Source: Bradymonadales bacterium (GTDB lineage: Bacteria; Bdellovibrionota; UBA2394). From it: a DNA stretch of 64,000 bases. How positions within the stretch are numbered: position 1 is the first letter of the stretch; every line of letters starts with the position of its first letter. Positions 26,070-45,524 of the stretch are shown here, piece after piece. The translations under genes and the position numbers were made by a program. Location of the stretch: positions 1-64,000 of the forward strand of contig REDG01000051.1 in the NCBI GenBank assembly GCA_007693605.1. The letters are read 5' to 3'. The notes beneath the pieces were generated by a model that made no database searches, was not told the DNA's origin, and was given only the letters and a program-made list of their open reading frames with translations.

Positions 26070-27227
26070 TCAAAGCGCCAAAGGATCTCGTCCATCGAGG
26101 CGGACCACTGACTCCAGATGCCTTGTTTGAGGAAAAAGGTCGATTAGTGTCCAGCTTTGAATTCGATACCCGCCCTTCTTGACCAAAGGGGTGAGGTCTC
26201 GAATGAGAGACCCGAGCGAGCAAGAAACATAAATCACTCGGGGCAGGGGCCGACCCATAAGGGATCGACAGAGTTTCAGAGATCCCCCTCGGGGTGGATC
26301 CATCACGACGCAGTCGGGCGCTTGATCTAAAAGAGAGATCAGGTTCTCTGCTTCCCCTTCAATCCATTCAATCTTTGAAGAGTTTTTCTTCGCCCAAGCG
26401 ATGCTCTCAGAATGGGACTCTACTCCAATCACTCGTTCAAAAACTTCCGAGAGGGGAAGACTCAAATTTCCTACGCCCGAAAAGAAATCGATAGCGAGTT
26501 TCTTTCGAGGCAAATCTTTTAGTTCGTTCAAAACCTGTTCAACCAAAAGCTCATTCGCAAACAAATTTCCCTGAGTGAAGGAGTTGGCTCCCACGCCCAG
26601 CTTGTGAGATCGCAGTGAATAAGTGGCATCCTGTTCCAGCAGTTGACCATTAAAGAAGCCGAAGCTTCTCGATGGAAAGCTCTTCAGTTCCTTCGCCTTT
26701 CTTTCAAGGGCTTCAAAGAAGCCCTTCACAAGAACAGGACAATCTTGAATGGGATGAAGTTCATGACTCTTTTCTTTGGTAAAGTGGAGCTGAGAGTCTT
26801 TCGCATGAATTCTCACGCGGTGCCGATACTCATAAGCTTTTGGGCTCTCGATGTATTGAAAGTGCTCTGGATCGAAATAGGGGGCCAGAGGTGAGCGCTT
26901 CAACCAATGAGAAGCCCATGAAATCTTCCACTCTCTTTGTTCTTTGGGTGAAAGGTGTTGGAGTTGACAGCCACCACAGTCGTAAAAGTGCGTGCAACGC
27001 ACATGAGCATGGGCATCGCTCCGTTTGATCCAGCGAAGCACTCTTGCCTGATATCGACTCTTTTCTCGAGCCACCAGTTCAATCTCGACCACATCACCCG
27101 ACCGAGTCTTCGGAACGAAGACGACAGCTTGGCCAAGAGAGGCCAACCCTTCGCCCCGACTTCCCAAGCCCTCGATCTCGACTTGATGCCGAGTATAAAT
27201 TTCTAACTTTGATGATGCAGTGTGCAT
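26070..27227 (-). CDS. RlmD/RumA-family 23S rRNA (uracil-C5) methyltransferase
   Basis: A 385-residue TRAM-domain methyltransferase. An N-terminal TRAM domain ('HQVEIEGLGSRGEGLA', 'GDVVEIELV') is followed by four iron-sulfur cysteines ('CTHFYDCGGC' plus 'IQDCPVL') and a class I methyltransferase core: 'DFFSGVGNLSLPL', 'DPPRGG' and the catalytic Cys in 'VIYVSCSLGS'. It should methylate a uridine in 23S rRNA, or possibly in tRNA as TrmA-like members do. Start ATG 27227; PilZ and queG follow. Confidence 0.9.
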   Translation of the reverse strand: MHTASSKLEIYTRHQVEIEGLGSRGEGLASLGQAVVFVPKTRSGDVVEIELVAREKSRYQARVLRWIKRSDAHAHVRCTHFYDCGGCQLQHLSPKEQREWKISWASHWLKRSPLAPYFDPEHFQYIESPKAYEYRHRVRIHAKDSQLHFTKEKSHELHPIQDCPVLVKGFFEALERKAKELKSFPSRSFGFFNGQLLEQDATYSLRSHKLGVGANSFTQGNLFANELLVEQVLNELKDLPRKKLAIDFFSGVGNLSLPLSEVFERVIGVESHSESIAWAKKNSSKIEWIEGEAENLISLLDQAPDCVVMDPPRGGSLKLCRSLMGRPLPRVIYVSCSLGSLIRDLTPLVKKGGYRIQSWTLIDLFPQTRHLESVVRLDGRDPLAL

Positions 27228-31644: not shown

Positions 31645-33051
31645 CTAGCTACTGATTCTGGTTCTCTCCAAAATGGCCAGAAAGAGCCCGTTACAGCCGT
31701 GAAGGTCTGGGGCCAGGACCAAAAAGGGGTCGAATTCCAGTAGGCCCGCTAGCTTGTCTTCCTTCCACTCAAGGCCATAATGATTCTGAACAAAGGGCAA
31801 GACATACTGACGAAGGTGCTCTGAAGCCGCCACCAGGCGGTAGGAATTGTGCGCTGACTTCAAAAAGTTCTCAATCTGCGCCTCATTTTCTGATCGATTC
31901 AGGCTCGATGTGGCATAAATCAGATGGCCGCCTAGCTTCAATTTCCTGGCGGCCTCTCTTAAAAGCGCGGCTTGAAGTCGCTGAATCTTCGGAAGATCTT
32001 CTCGCTTAAAACGCCACTTCAGCTCGGGTTGCCGAGCCACCATGCCGCTACTTGAGCTGGGGGAGTCTACCAAGACCACATCGAGGCTCTTCACCTCAGC
32101 GACCTGAGCGTCGGAAAGAATCCGAATGTTTTCAACACCAGCTCGTTGGGCGCGGGCCTTAAGTACCTTCAGTTTGCTCGGATCCGCATCATAGACAAAC
32201 AAAGAGCCTTTGTTTTTCATCATACAGGCGAGATTGAGAGTGTGATCGCCTTCTCTTGCACAAAGATCCAGTACCCGGTGGCCTGGCCGAGCGTTGGTCA
32301 TCAAAGCCATGATTTGAGAGGCCTCGTCTTCAATCTCAAAAAAACCTCTCTCATAAAGCGGATGTTGAATCGGGTTCAGGCCGCTGCCCACATCAAAACC
32401 CCAAGGGCTGAACTGGCATCGTTTTACTTTCAAGTCAGCGCCCGCTTTACTGTGAGCAAAGCCCTGAATGTCCACCCGAAGACTGTTCACTCGAATGCTG
32501 GAGCGAGGCTTCAATGAACATATGGAAGCAATCTGTCTCACTCGCTGCTCTGGAAATCGCTCAGCAAGCTCCTTTAGAATTTCATCCGGCACGGGCTCTT
32601 TTCTGAGTCCCGATTCGATCTTTTCGATAATCATAGCCGAATTCTTTTCCTTTTCTTCTGCTGACTTTCCAGGGGCCTCGTAGAGGCTAAAGAGTTTCTT
32701 GAGCCCGGCGATAAAGTTCTCTGAAGAGGGATTCCAAACCTCCTGAAACTGTTTATAGGCCTGAGTCATTGAGAGAGCGGGTCTGGCCGCCTCTTGGGCC
32801 TTAGCGGCCTTCTGAGGGCTTGCGACTGCTGGTTTCTTTACCGAGGCCGTTTTCTTGAGCTTCTTCTGACTGCTGAGTCTGGCTTTTGTCGGACTAGTTT
32901 TTTTCTTCTTCTTTTGAGAACTTTGACGAGAGGGGCTCTTTTTCTTCTTTGAACTACGACGAAGGGGCTTCTTTTTGATCGCCGTTTTCTTCTTTTTCGT
33001 TGAGCCGCGTTTCTTTTTGGAGGTCTTTGTCCTTGTTTTCTTTTTTGCCAT
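31645..33051 (-). CDS. RsmB/NOP2-like protein lacking both catalytic cysteines
   Basis: A 468-residue relative of rRNA m5C methyltransferases. Residues 1-85 are an extremely Lys/Ser-rich tail. A NusB/PUA-like helical region is followed by a methyltransferase core near 260-420. Motif IV reads 'VDSPSSSSGM' with Ser332 where the family has Cys, and motif VI reads 'IYATSSLNRSENEA' with Ser382 in place of the nucleophile Cys. Motif I 'LDLCAREGDHTLN' also departs from the usual DxCAAPGGK. Active enzymes need the motif VI Cys, so this is probably an inactive RNA-binding relative. Start ATG 33051. Confidence 0.85.
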   Translation of the reverse strand: MAKKKTRTKTSKKKRGSTKKKKTAIKKKPLRRSSKKKKSPSRQSSQKKKKKTSPTKARLSSQKKLKKTASVKKPAVASPQKAAKAQEAARPALSMTQAYKQFQEVWNPSSENFIAGLKKLFSLYEAPGKSAEEKEKNSAMIIEKIESGLRKEPVPDEILKELAERFPEQRVRQIASICSLKPRSSIRVNSLRVDIQGFAHSKAGADLKVKRCQFSPWGFDVGSGLNPIQHPLYERGFFEIEDEASQIMALMTNARPGHRVLDLCAREGDHTLNLACMMKNKGSLFVYDADPSKLKVLKARAQRAGVENIRILSDAQVAEVKSLDVVLVDSPSSSSGMVARQPELKWRFKREDLPKIQRLQAALLREAARKLKLGGHLIYATSSLNRSENEAQIENFLKSAHNSYRLVAASEHLRQYVLPFVQNHYGLEWKEDKLAGLLEFDPFLVLAPDLHGCNGLFLAILERTRISS

Positions 33052-43860: not shown

Positions 43861-45009
43861 ATGAGAATCTCTCTTAGCGATGAGCAGCAGCAGTTTCAAG
43901 ACTGGGCTAAGAAGTTTGCGGAGTCTTGCGTGAAGCCTCATGTCGAGCGCCATCAAACAGAGAGAATTCAGCCCGAGCTGTTGAAAGAGCTTTCATCGCA
44001 GGGCTGGATGGCCTTGACAGTCCCTGAAACTGAAGGGGGAGGGGGCTTAGACCCACTTTCCTTTTCAGTCTGCATTCGAGAGTTGTCTCGAGTCTGTGCT
44101 TCAACCGCCATCACGGTGGCGGTCACCAATATGATTGCTGAGACTCTGGCCCGTGATGGAACAGCGGCTCAGAAGAAGAAATTTCTATCCTCCATTGTAA
44201 GCGGCAGTTCTTTGACGGCGAGCTTTTGCCTGACGGAGAACTCCAGTGGATCAGACGCCGCCGCCCTGCGAACAAGGGCAGAGAAAAAATCTCGGCATTA
44301 TGTCCTCAATGGAGAGAAGATCTATGTCACCAATGGGGCTTACTCAGGGGTTTTTTTGGTAATGGCCCGAACCTCTGAAACGCCAGGGGCCCAGGGAATT
44401 TCGGCCTTCATCGTCGAGAGAGATCAAAAGGGGCTTCATCTCGGAAAAGAAGAAGATAAGATGGGTTTGACGGCCAGTAGTACGATTCAACTGAGTTTAG
44501 ATCAGGTGGAGGTGCCTGAAGAGAATCGACTTCTTGAAGAAGGGGAGGGCTTTAAGATTGCGATGCGCTCGCTGGATTCCGGCCGAATCTCGGTCGCCTC
44601 TCAGAGTTTAGGCACCGCCGAGGCTGCGTTGGCGGCTGGTTTGCGCTATGTGAAGGAGCGAGAACAGTTTGGGAAGACTCTGTCGGAGTTTCAGGCCATT
44701 CAATGGAAGCTCGCGAATGCAGCGACAGAGCTTTCTGCGGCGGAGCTTCTGATCGCAAAGGCTTGTGACCTCAAGAGGAAGGGACGATCGTATACTCGAG
44801 CCGCCAGTATGGCGAAATTGTTCGCCACGGAGTCAGCCACGAGGGTTTGCAATGAGATGATTCAAATTTTTGGAGGCTATGGTTACATCAAGGAATATCC
44901 CGTAGAGAGATTTTATCGCGATGTTCGGGTGACCAAGCTTTACGAGGGTACGAGTGAGATCCAGAGGCTGGTGATCGCTAAAGATCTTTTGAAGGGAGCA
45001 GAGCTTTGA
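43861..45009 (+). CDS. Acyl-CoA dehydrogenase 2
   Basis: A 382-residue acyl-CoA dehydrogenase. '[19 protein letters not shown]' and '[16 protein letters not shown]' are the FAD/substrate segments, the catalytic Glu lies in '[17 protein letters not shown]'. It is a paralogue of the dehydrogenases at 42665 and 45521. It ends in overlap with the B12-binding domain gene (TTGA), so these two are translationally coupled. Confidence 0.93.
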
Positions 45010-45524
45010 GACCGATTCGGGTGCTGATGGCGAAGTTGGGTTTAGACGGGCATGATCGCGGGGCCAAAGTGGTGATGGCGGCATTAAGAGACGCGGGCAT
45101 GGAGGTGATTTATTCGGGGCTTCATCAGACCCCCGCGGCTGTGGCCCGAGCCGCGGTGGAAGAAGATGTGGATGTGATCGGTTTAAGCATTCTTTCAGGG
45201 GCTCACAAAGACCTGGTGCCTCGTCTGGTTCAAGAGCTAGCTCAATTGGAGGCGGACTCCATACCCATTGCCCTGGGCGGCATTATTCCGGACTCCGATC
45301 GGAATCTTCTGAAGAAAATGGGGGTTCGGGCGGTATTCAGTCCGGGAACGCGGCTCGATGAGATTGTAGACTCGATTCGATCGCTTCGCGAAAAAAAGTC
45401 TGCGAAGTCCGGCTTAAAAAAGAGCGGGTCAAAGACGGGGAAAAAACCCCTCAAAAGCCTGAAAGCTAAAAAGAAAAGCCCGCCCAAAAACTCCAGGACT
45501 CTGAAGAAAGGAAAGCCGAAATGA
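45006..45524 (+). CDS. Stand-alone B12-binding domain protein (mutase small-subunit type) with Lys-rich tail
   Basis: A 172-residue protein. The first 130 residues are the cobalamin-binding domain of acyl-CoA mutases: '[20 protein letters not shown]' holds the DxHxxG with the Co-ligating His, plus '[11 protein letters not shown]', 'GLSILSGAH' and 'LGGIIPDSD'. It equals the C-terminal domain of methylmalonyl-CoA mutase or the isobutyryl-CoA mutase small subunit. The last 40 residues are Lys/Ser-rich ([20 protein letters not shown]), not part of the domain. No mutase catalytic subunit lies nearby. It starts with TTG overlapping the acyl-CoA dehydrogenase stop. Confidence 0.9.

Follow-up and report, generated by a model that had tools for sequence, protein, structure and literature searches.

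An RsmB-derived protein with a dismantled methyltransferase active site, probably a pseudoenzyme, retained in five genera of Bdellovibrionota

Results

An RsmB/F-family gene without catalytic cysteines

The window, by which we mean the whole 64,000-nucleotide stretch of DNA analyzed here, comes from a Bdellovibrionota genome (G000) of 2.19 Mb that is assembled in 79 contigs and 90% complete. On its minus strand, at positions 31645 to 33051 with the stop codon included, lies a gene for an RsmB/F-like putative pseudo-methyltransferase of 468 amino acids, with its ATG at 33051 and its stop at 31645; the plus strand across the same positions is crowded with stops. The protein scored 113.6 bits against the PF01189 profile, over the curated cut-off of 27, and its best NCBIfam matches were RsmB models. 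It missed the RsmB equivalog models TIGR00563 (156.8 vs 269.05 bits) and NF011494 (178 vs 319 bits), and scored below the cut-offs of all the NCBIfam RsmB and RsmF equivalogs that it matched. The gene sits between FabI-like and DUF255 genes, both on the opposite strand, and has no operon context; promoter and terminator scans at the gene gave no usable result. About 4.4 kb away, at 26073 to 27227 on the minus strand, is a gene resembling those for TRAM-domain tRNA/rRNA uracil-5-methyltransferases.

The protein opens with a Lys-rich tail (residues 1 to 90, positions 32782 to 33051) in which Lys and Arg make up 43% of residues and Asp and Glu 1%, and most of which is predicted to be disordered (AlphaFold2 pLDDT below 50 at residues 1 to 3 and 5 to 75). 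The earlier note had described a Lys/Ser-rich tail of 85 residues; the tail is real, is about 90 residues long, and forms the N-terminal end. It is followed by a helical region (residues 91 to 153, positions 32593 to 32781) that has no Pfam match and superposes in part on the N-terminal domains of PH0851 and of E. coli RsmB (NusB-like in RsmB; 1sqf, from residue 93), by an RsmF_N/RsmB-F ferredoxin-like region (residues 154 to 240, positions 32332 to 32592) whose matches fall under Pfam cut-offs, and by a Rossmann-fold methyltransferase domain (residues 241 to 468, positions 31648 to 32331) recognized by profile, predicted model, and structural matches. AlphaFold2 gave a pLDDT of at least 90 at 372 of the 468 residues, and the closest solved structures were PH0851, Nop2 in pre-60S particles, RsmF, and RsmB, with Z scores of 33 to 36. 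The predicted core has the RsmB/NOP2 methyltransferase fold.

Alignment placed motif I (VLDLCAREGDHT) at residues 260 to 271 (positions 32239 to 32274), motif IV (DSPSSSSG) at 329 to 336 (32044 to 32067), and motif VI (YATSSL) at 379 to 384 (31900 to 31917). As had been claimed on first inspection, and with the same residue numbers, both cysteines that mark an active m5C methyltransferase are replaced by serine: the motif IV Cys for product release is S332 within VDSPSSSSG (AGC, 32056 to 32058), and the motif VI Cys nucleophile is S382 (TCG, 31906 to 31908). Since TCG is two base changes from any Cys codon, S382 is not a single miscall. The family Lys of motif I is H270, and residue 456 (31684 to 31686) is Leu where 100 of 112 other homologs have Phe.

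Loss of the active site in five genera

Our family sample consisted of five fragmented genomes of uncultured Bdellovibrionota from five genera (G000 to G004, 76 to 96% complete), each with one syntenic ortholog. The five share the order of the neighboring genes, with the G002 locus split across two contigs; the frame is open at the same locus in every genus, cut only by the contig end in G002, and core identity among the orthologs is 47 to 65%. All five N-terminal tails contain 32 to 43% Lys plus Arg, and in the best 60-residue window near the N terminus this fraction reached 0.35 to 0.50 in the orthologs, compared to 0.33 or less in 113 other homologs. A B12-binding-domain protein encoded elsewhere in the window (44982 to 45521, plus strand) also has a Lys-rich tail, at its C terminus, and such tails may be a habit of the lineage.

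Active-site columns were compared with a contrast set of 112 sequences, made up of 110 homologs from the sampled loci together with E. coli RsmB and RsmF; these homologs were picked for their similarity to the clade, most of them from its own phylum, so that the counts describe a set of that kind rather than all bacteria. Before counting, we dropped the 87-amino-acid second piece of the G002 gene and two partial homologs, L081 (C/C) and L085 (Cys at motif IV, motif VI missing), and set L019 (below) apart. All 112 had the Lys of motif I, both the Asp and the Cys of motif IV, and the Cys of motif VI. Taking the orthologs in the order G000, G004, G001, G003, and G002, the motif VI nucleophile column reads S/T/S/Y/S, with the G002 Ser (codon TCA) at a contig edge, and the motif IV Cys column reads S/C/S/S/S. 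The Cys losses thus recur in orthologs, at motif VI in all five and at motif IV in four, with G004 alone retaining the motif IV Cys, along with the Asp. The motif I Lys (column 270; H/H/T/S/N) is lost in five of five, the motif IV Asp (column 329; D/D/H/E/H) in three of five, and the C-terminal Phe (column 456; L/M/T/T, plus T in a fifth ortholog read apart) in five of five. Counted over the clade, the family residue survives in 3 of 23 aligned cells at the five active-site columns, but in 128 of 148 at the other conserved columns (31 of the 36 with at least 85% conservation in homologs). With five genera affected at one syntenic locus compared to none of the 112 other homologs, and the exception L019 counted apart, the alignment confirms a loss beyond chance.

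In human NSUN6, the side chains that recognize the target cytosine are reported as Lys248, Asp323, Cys326, Cys373, and Phe458 (PMC10249782). Those of motifs IV and VI map directly onto our columns, whereas Lys248 and Phe458 would presumably fall on columns 270 and 456, going by the PGGK/PGSK and GFF patterns shared by other solved members. The pocket predicted to grip and attack the target cytosine is dismantled, with changes at the motif I Lys, the motif IV Asp and Cys, the motif VI Cys, and the C-terminal Phe.

Motif I, which the earlier note had called degenerate, does differ from the RsmB form, reading DLCAREGDHT with its Lys replaced, but this is not random decay. The motif I Gly is kept in all five orthologs, as are an acidic residue (Asp or Glu) at 288 and Asp 314, and each ortholog is matched by the Pfam UbiE model (best E 1.2e-7); G003 has Ile in place of the motif I Asp. 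With the Gly and both acidic positions retained in every ortholog, SAM binding may persist.

Selection and phylogeny

Over ten pairwise comparisons, core pN was 0.23 to 0.36 against a saturated pS of 0.72 to 0.86, and tail pN, at 0.41 to 0.65, lay above that of the core. With nonsynonymous change far under synonymous, these substitution patterns put the protein under purifying selection. The five orthologs form one clade with support of 100, and in a quick tree its stem is 1.77 changes per column and its tips are 0.22 to 0.37. The clade falls on the RsmB side, away from E. coli RsmF. A long stem with short tips points to rapid change first and constraint later. By parsimony, the nucleophile would have been lost before the five genera split, and the motif IV Cys, kept in G004, which groups with G000, would have been lost at least twice, or once with a reversal.

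Other RsmB/F copies, the rRNA target, and neighboring modifications

No intact rsmB was found in the source genome, where this gene is the only RsmB/F-family member found, and each of the five family genomes likewise has a single gene over the PF01189 cut-off and no second intact RsmB/F copy. Weaker PF01189 hits in these genomes were considered as second copies and rejected, as their sequences look like other methyltransferases; judging by eye, we take them to be RlmE/FtsJ-like, RlmI-like, and RsmH-like proteins and one generic methyltransferase. It is very unlikely that a second copy was missed in all five, even with fragmented genomes of this completeness.

Both C967 and C1407 are present in the 16S rRNA of the four family genomes in which it could be read, no 16S match having been found in G002. 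Loss of the target base was rejected as the cause of the dead chemistry: C967 is kept, so the chemistry was not lost because its target went. The four readable 16S loci of the family (L130, L136, L137, and L140) all carry one extra T about 17 bases past C967, reading CCTTATCCTGG compared to CCTTACCT in six phylum controls.

KsgA scored over its cut-off in all five family genomes, which counts against a general loss of rRNA methyltransferases. RsmD makes m2G966, the neighbor of C967; only G001 and G004 yielded a full-length copy, with weak partial matches in G000, G002, and G003, and genome incompleteness may explain part of this shortfall. Some match to PF03602 was found in 38 of 39 genomes. 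At E 1e-6, PF01189 found nothing in 37 of 144 sampled genomes of the phylum. Doing without the gene altogether is thus common and seems to be tolerated, but this family has held on to its seemingly dead copy.

A second case in the phylum

An RsmB/F homolog at L019:1453-2397, in a genome of the same phylum and another family (G016), lacks all five active-site residues as well, with R, Y, S, S, and I in their places. This loss is independent of that in the five-genus clade. The protein differs from ours in being 315 amino acids long, in having no Lys-rich tail, and in occurring in one genome only, and G016 has a second RsmB/F gene, L034, that is intact. We also searched 27 other relatives with L019. 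Of these, 15 matched at E 1e-8, none as a close ortholog; the best match was an intact protein of G015 with 34% identity, and two of the 15 were the proteins of G004 and G001 from the five-genus clade.

Discussion

We think it reasonably probable that the gene product is a pseudoenzyme peculiar to this lineage, one that arose from RsmB (Sun/Fmu), the 16S rRNA m5C967 methyltransferase, and that has lost the m5C reaction, docks on RNA, and aids or checks assembly. Loss of the m5C chemistry is almost certain, and that the protein serves in rRNA binding or assembly is somewhat more probable than not. A pseudoenzyme had been suggested in the earlier note, and that suggestion is well supported by the recurrence of the losses in five genera, the finding of no intact rsmB or rsmF in the five genomes, and purifying selection. 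The protein shares with RsmB a PF01189 domain and superposes on 1sqf over residues 93 to 463 (Z 33.3), but it lacks both catalytic Cys, the motif I Lys, and the C-terminal Phe, its N-terminal region differs, and the Lys-rich tail has been added.

How such a protein could work can be outlined from published relatives. Its pocket has been dismantled, while the fold, the motif I Gly, the motif II acidic residue, and the other conserved positions are retained under purifying selection. It would no longer make m5C but would still dock on structured RNA. As for RsmB, the likeliest place is the vicinity of helix 31 in early 30S rRNA; the added Lys-rich tail would aid the docking, and SAM or SAH may still sit in the pocket. 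Once docked, it would help folding or act as an assembly checkpoint. RsmB is reported to act early in 30S assembly, and E. coli without it to accumulate 17S precursor (PMC7056703); NSUN4/MTERF4 is described as having a role in mitoribosome assembly independent of methylation (PMC3916286), human NOP2 as having a noncatalytic role in ribosome biogenesis (PMC9561284), and METTL15 offers a further precedent (PMC11197891). The early 30S role of RsmB and the methylation-independent roles of NSUN4 and NOP2 together lead us to propose a nonmethylating rRNA-binding assembly factor or checkpoint. Both NSUN4 and NOP2/NSUN1 have the RsmB/NOP2 fold, the latter among our best fold matches, but they are active enzymes: NSUN4 also methylates 12S rRNA, and NOP2/NSUN1 acts on large-subunit rRNA. 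In the open-access literature searched, judged on titles and the starts of abstracts, we recognized no paper on a catalytically dead bacterial RsmB or RsmF. PMC11045063 concerns an enzyme with both Cys intact, and PMC4119055 reports RsmF paralogs but not RsmB paralogs and does not contain the word "cysteine."

The same features could also describe an RNA- or DNA-binding protein with nothing to do with ribosomes, for example a histone-like or regulatory one, in which the old fold is a scaffold and the Lys-rich tail the main contact. A tail more basic than the N-terminal windows of 113 other homologs would fit such a protein. However, constraint is stronger on the folded core than on the tail, which argues that the core matters most, and we consider this reading unlikely.

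A re-tooled but active SAM-dependent methyltransferase, binding SAM through the UbiE-like motif I and moving the methyl group to an N or O of RNA or protein, is improbable as well. The UbiE matches, the SAM-site residues kept in all five orthologs, and a domain that is otherwise strongly conserved all speak for it, but columns 270, 329, and 382 of the former active site each vary within the clade, and the motif I Asp has become Ile in one genus. The motif IV of the clade is, moreover, presumably not of the form known for amino-methyltransferases.

Two further readings have little left to recommend them. In a decaying gene heading for loss, catalytic residues would drift freely, as they do here, and many genomes of the phylum do without the family, but an open frame at one locus in five genera, with a conserved core and pN far under pS, makes this very improbable. 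That the protein still makes m5C with Ser or another nucleophile, the changed chemistry once offered as an alternative, is scarcely credible even with motif IV intact in G004 and Ser at motif VI in three orthologs, since no replacement residue is conserved among the orthologs (Thr and Tyr stand at the motif VI position in two), the pocket has also lost its Lys, Asp, and Phe, and the mechanism, as reported, requires the motif VI Cys (PMC6409601). Conservation would be expected of a substitute nucleophile, yet the residue varies, and a gene on its way out should not hold on to its frame and core across five genera, which makes a noncatalytic role the best reading.

That this noncatalytic role lies in rRNA binding or assembly is plausible from the fold, the conserved noncatalytic residues, the basic tail, and the published precedents. 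Several points weigh against it: nothing in the gene neighborhood indicates ribosome assembly, the Lys-rich tail could be a generic nucleic acid binder, one aligned ortholog (G004) keeps the motif IV Cys and Asp, and the assembly effect seen in E. coli without RsmB could itself be due to the missing methylation. More tentatively, and with the balance slightly against it, the whole lineage might have made RsmB a dedicated nonmethylating 30S assembly chaperone, in which docking rather than the m5C967 mark was selected and the tail was added to strengthen that docking. In a bolder form, the pseudoenzyme may bind SAM and RNA as a sensor.

For annotation, an automatic "RsmB/F" label does not imply m5C967, as the conserved pattern that remains is enough to pass the Pfam cut-off. 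Whether rRNA methyltransferases matter for their mark or for assembly is an old question, usually tackled with engineered catalytic mutants, such as those of METTL15 and NOP2. Here, evolution appears to have made such a mutant of a bacterial RsmB and retained it in five genera in which no intact substitute was found. If the proposed noncatalytic role is true, the family would represent a natural separation-of-function experiment, setting the mark against the binding as the reason why rRNA methyltransferases are retained.
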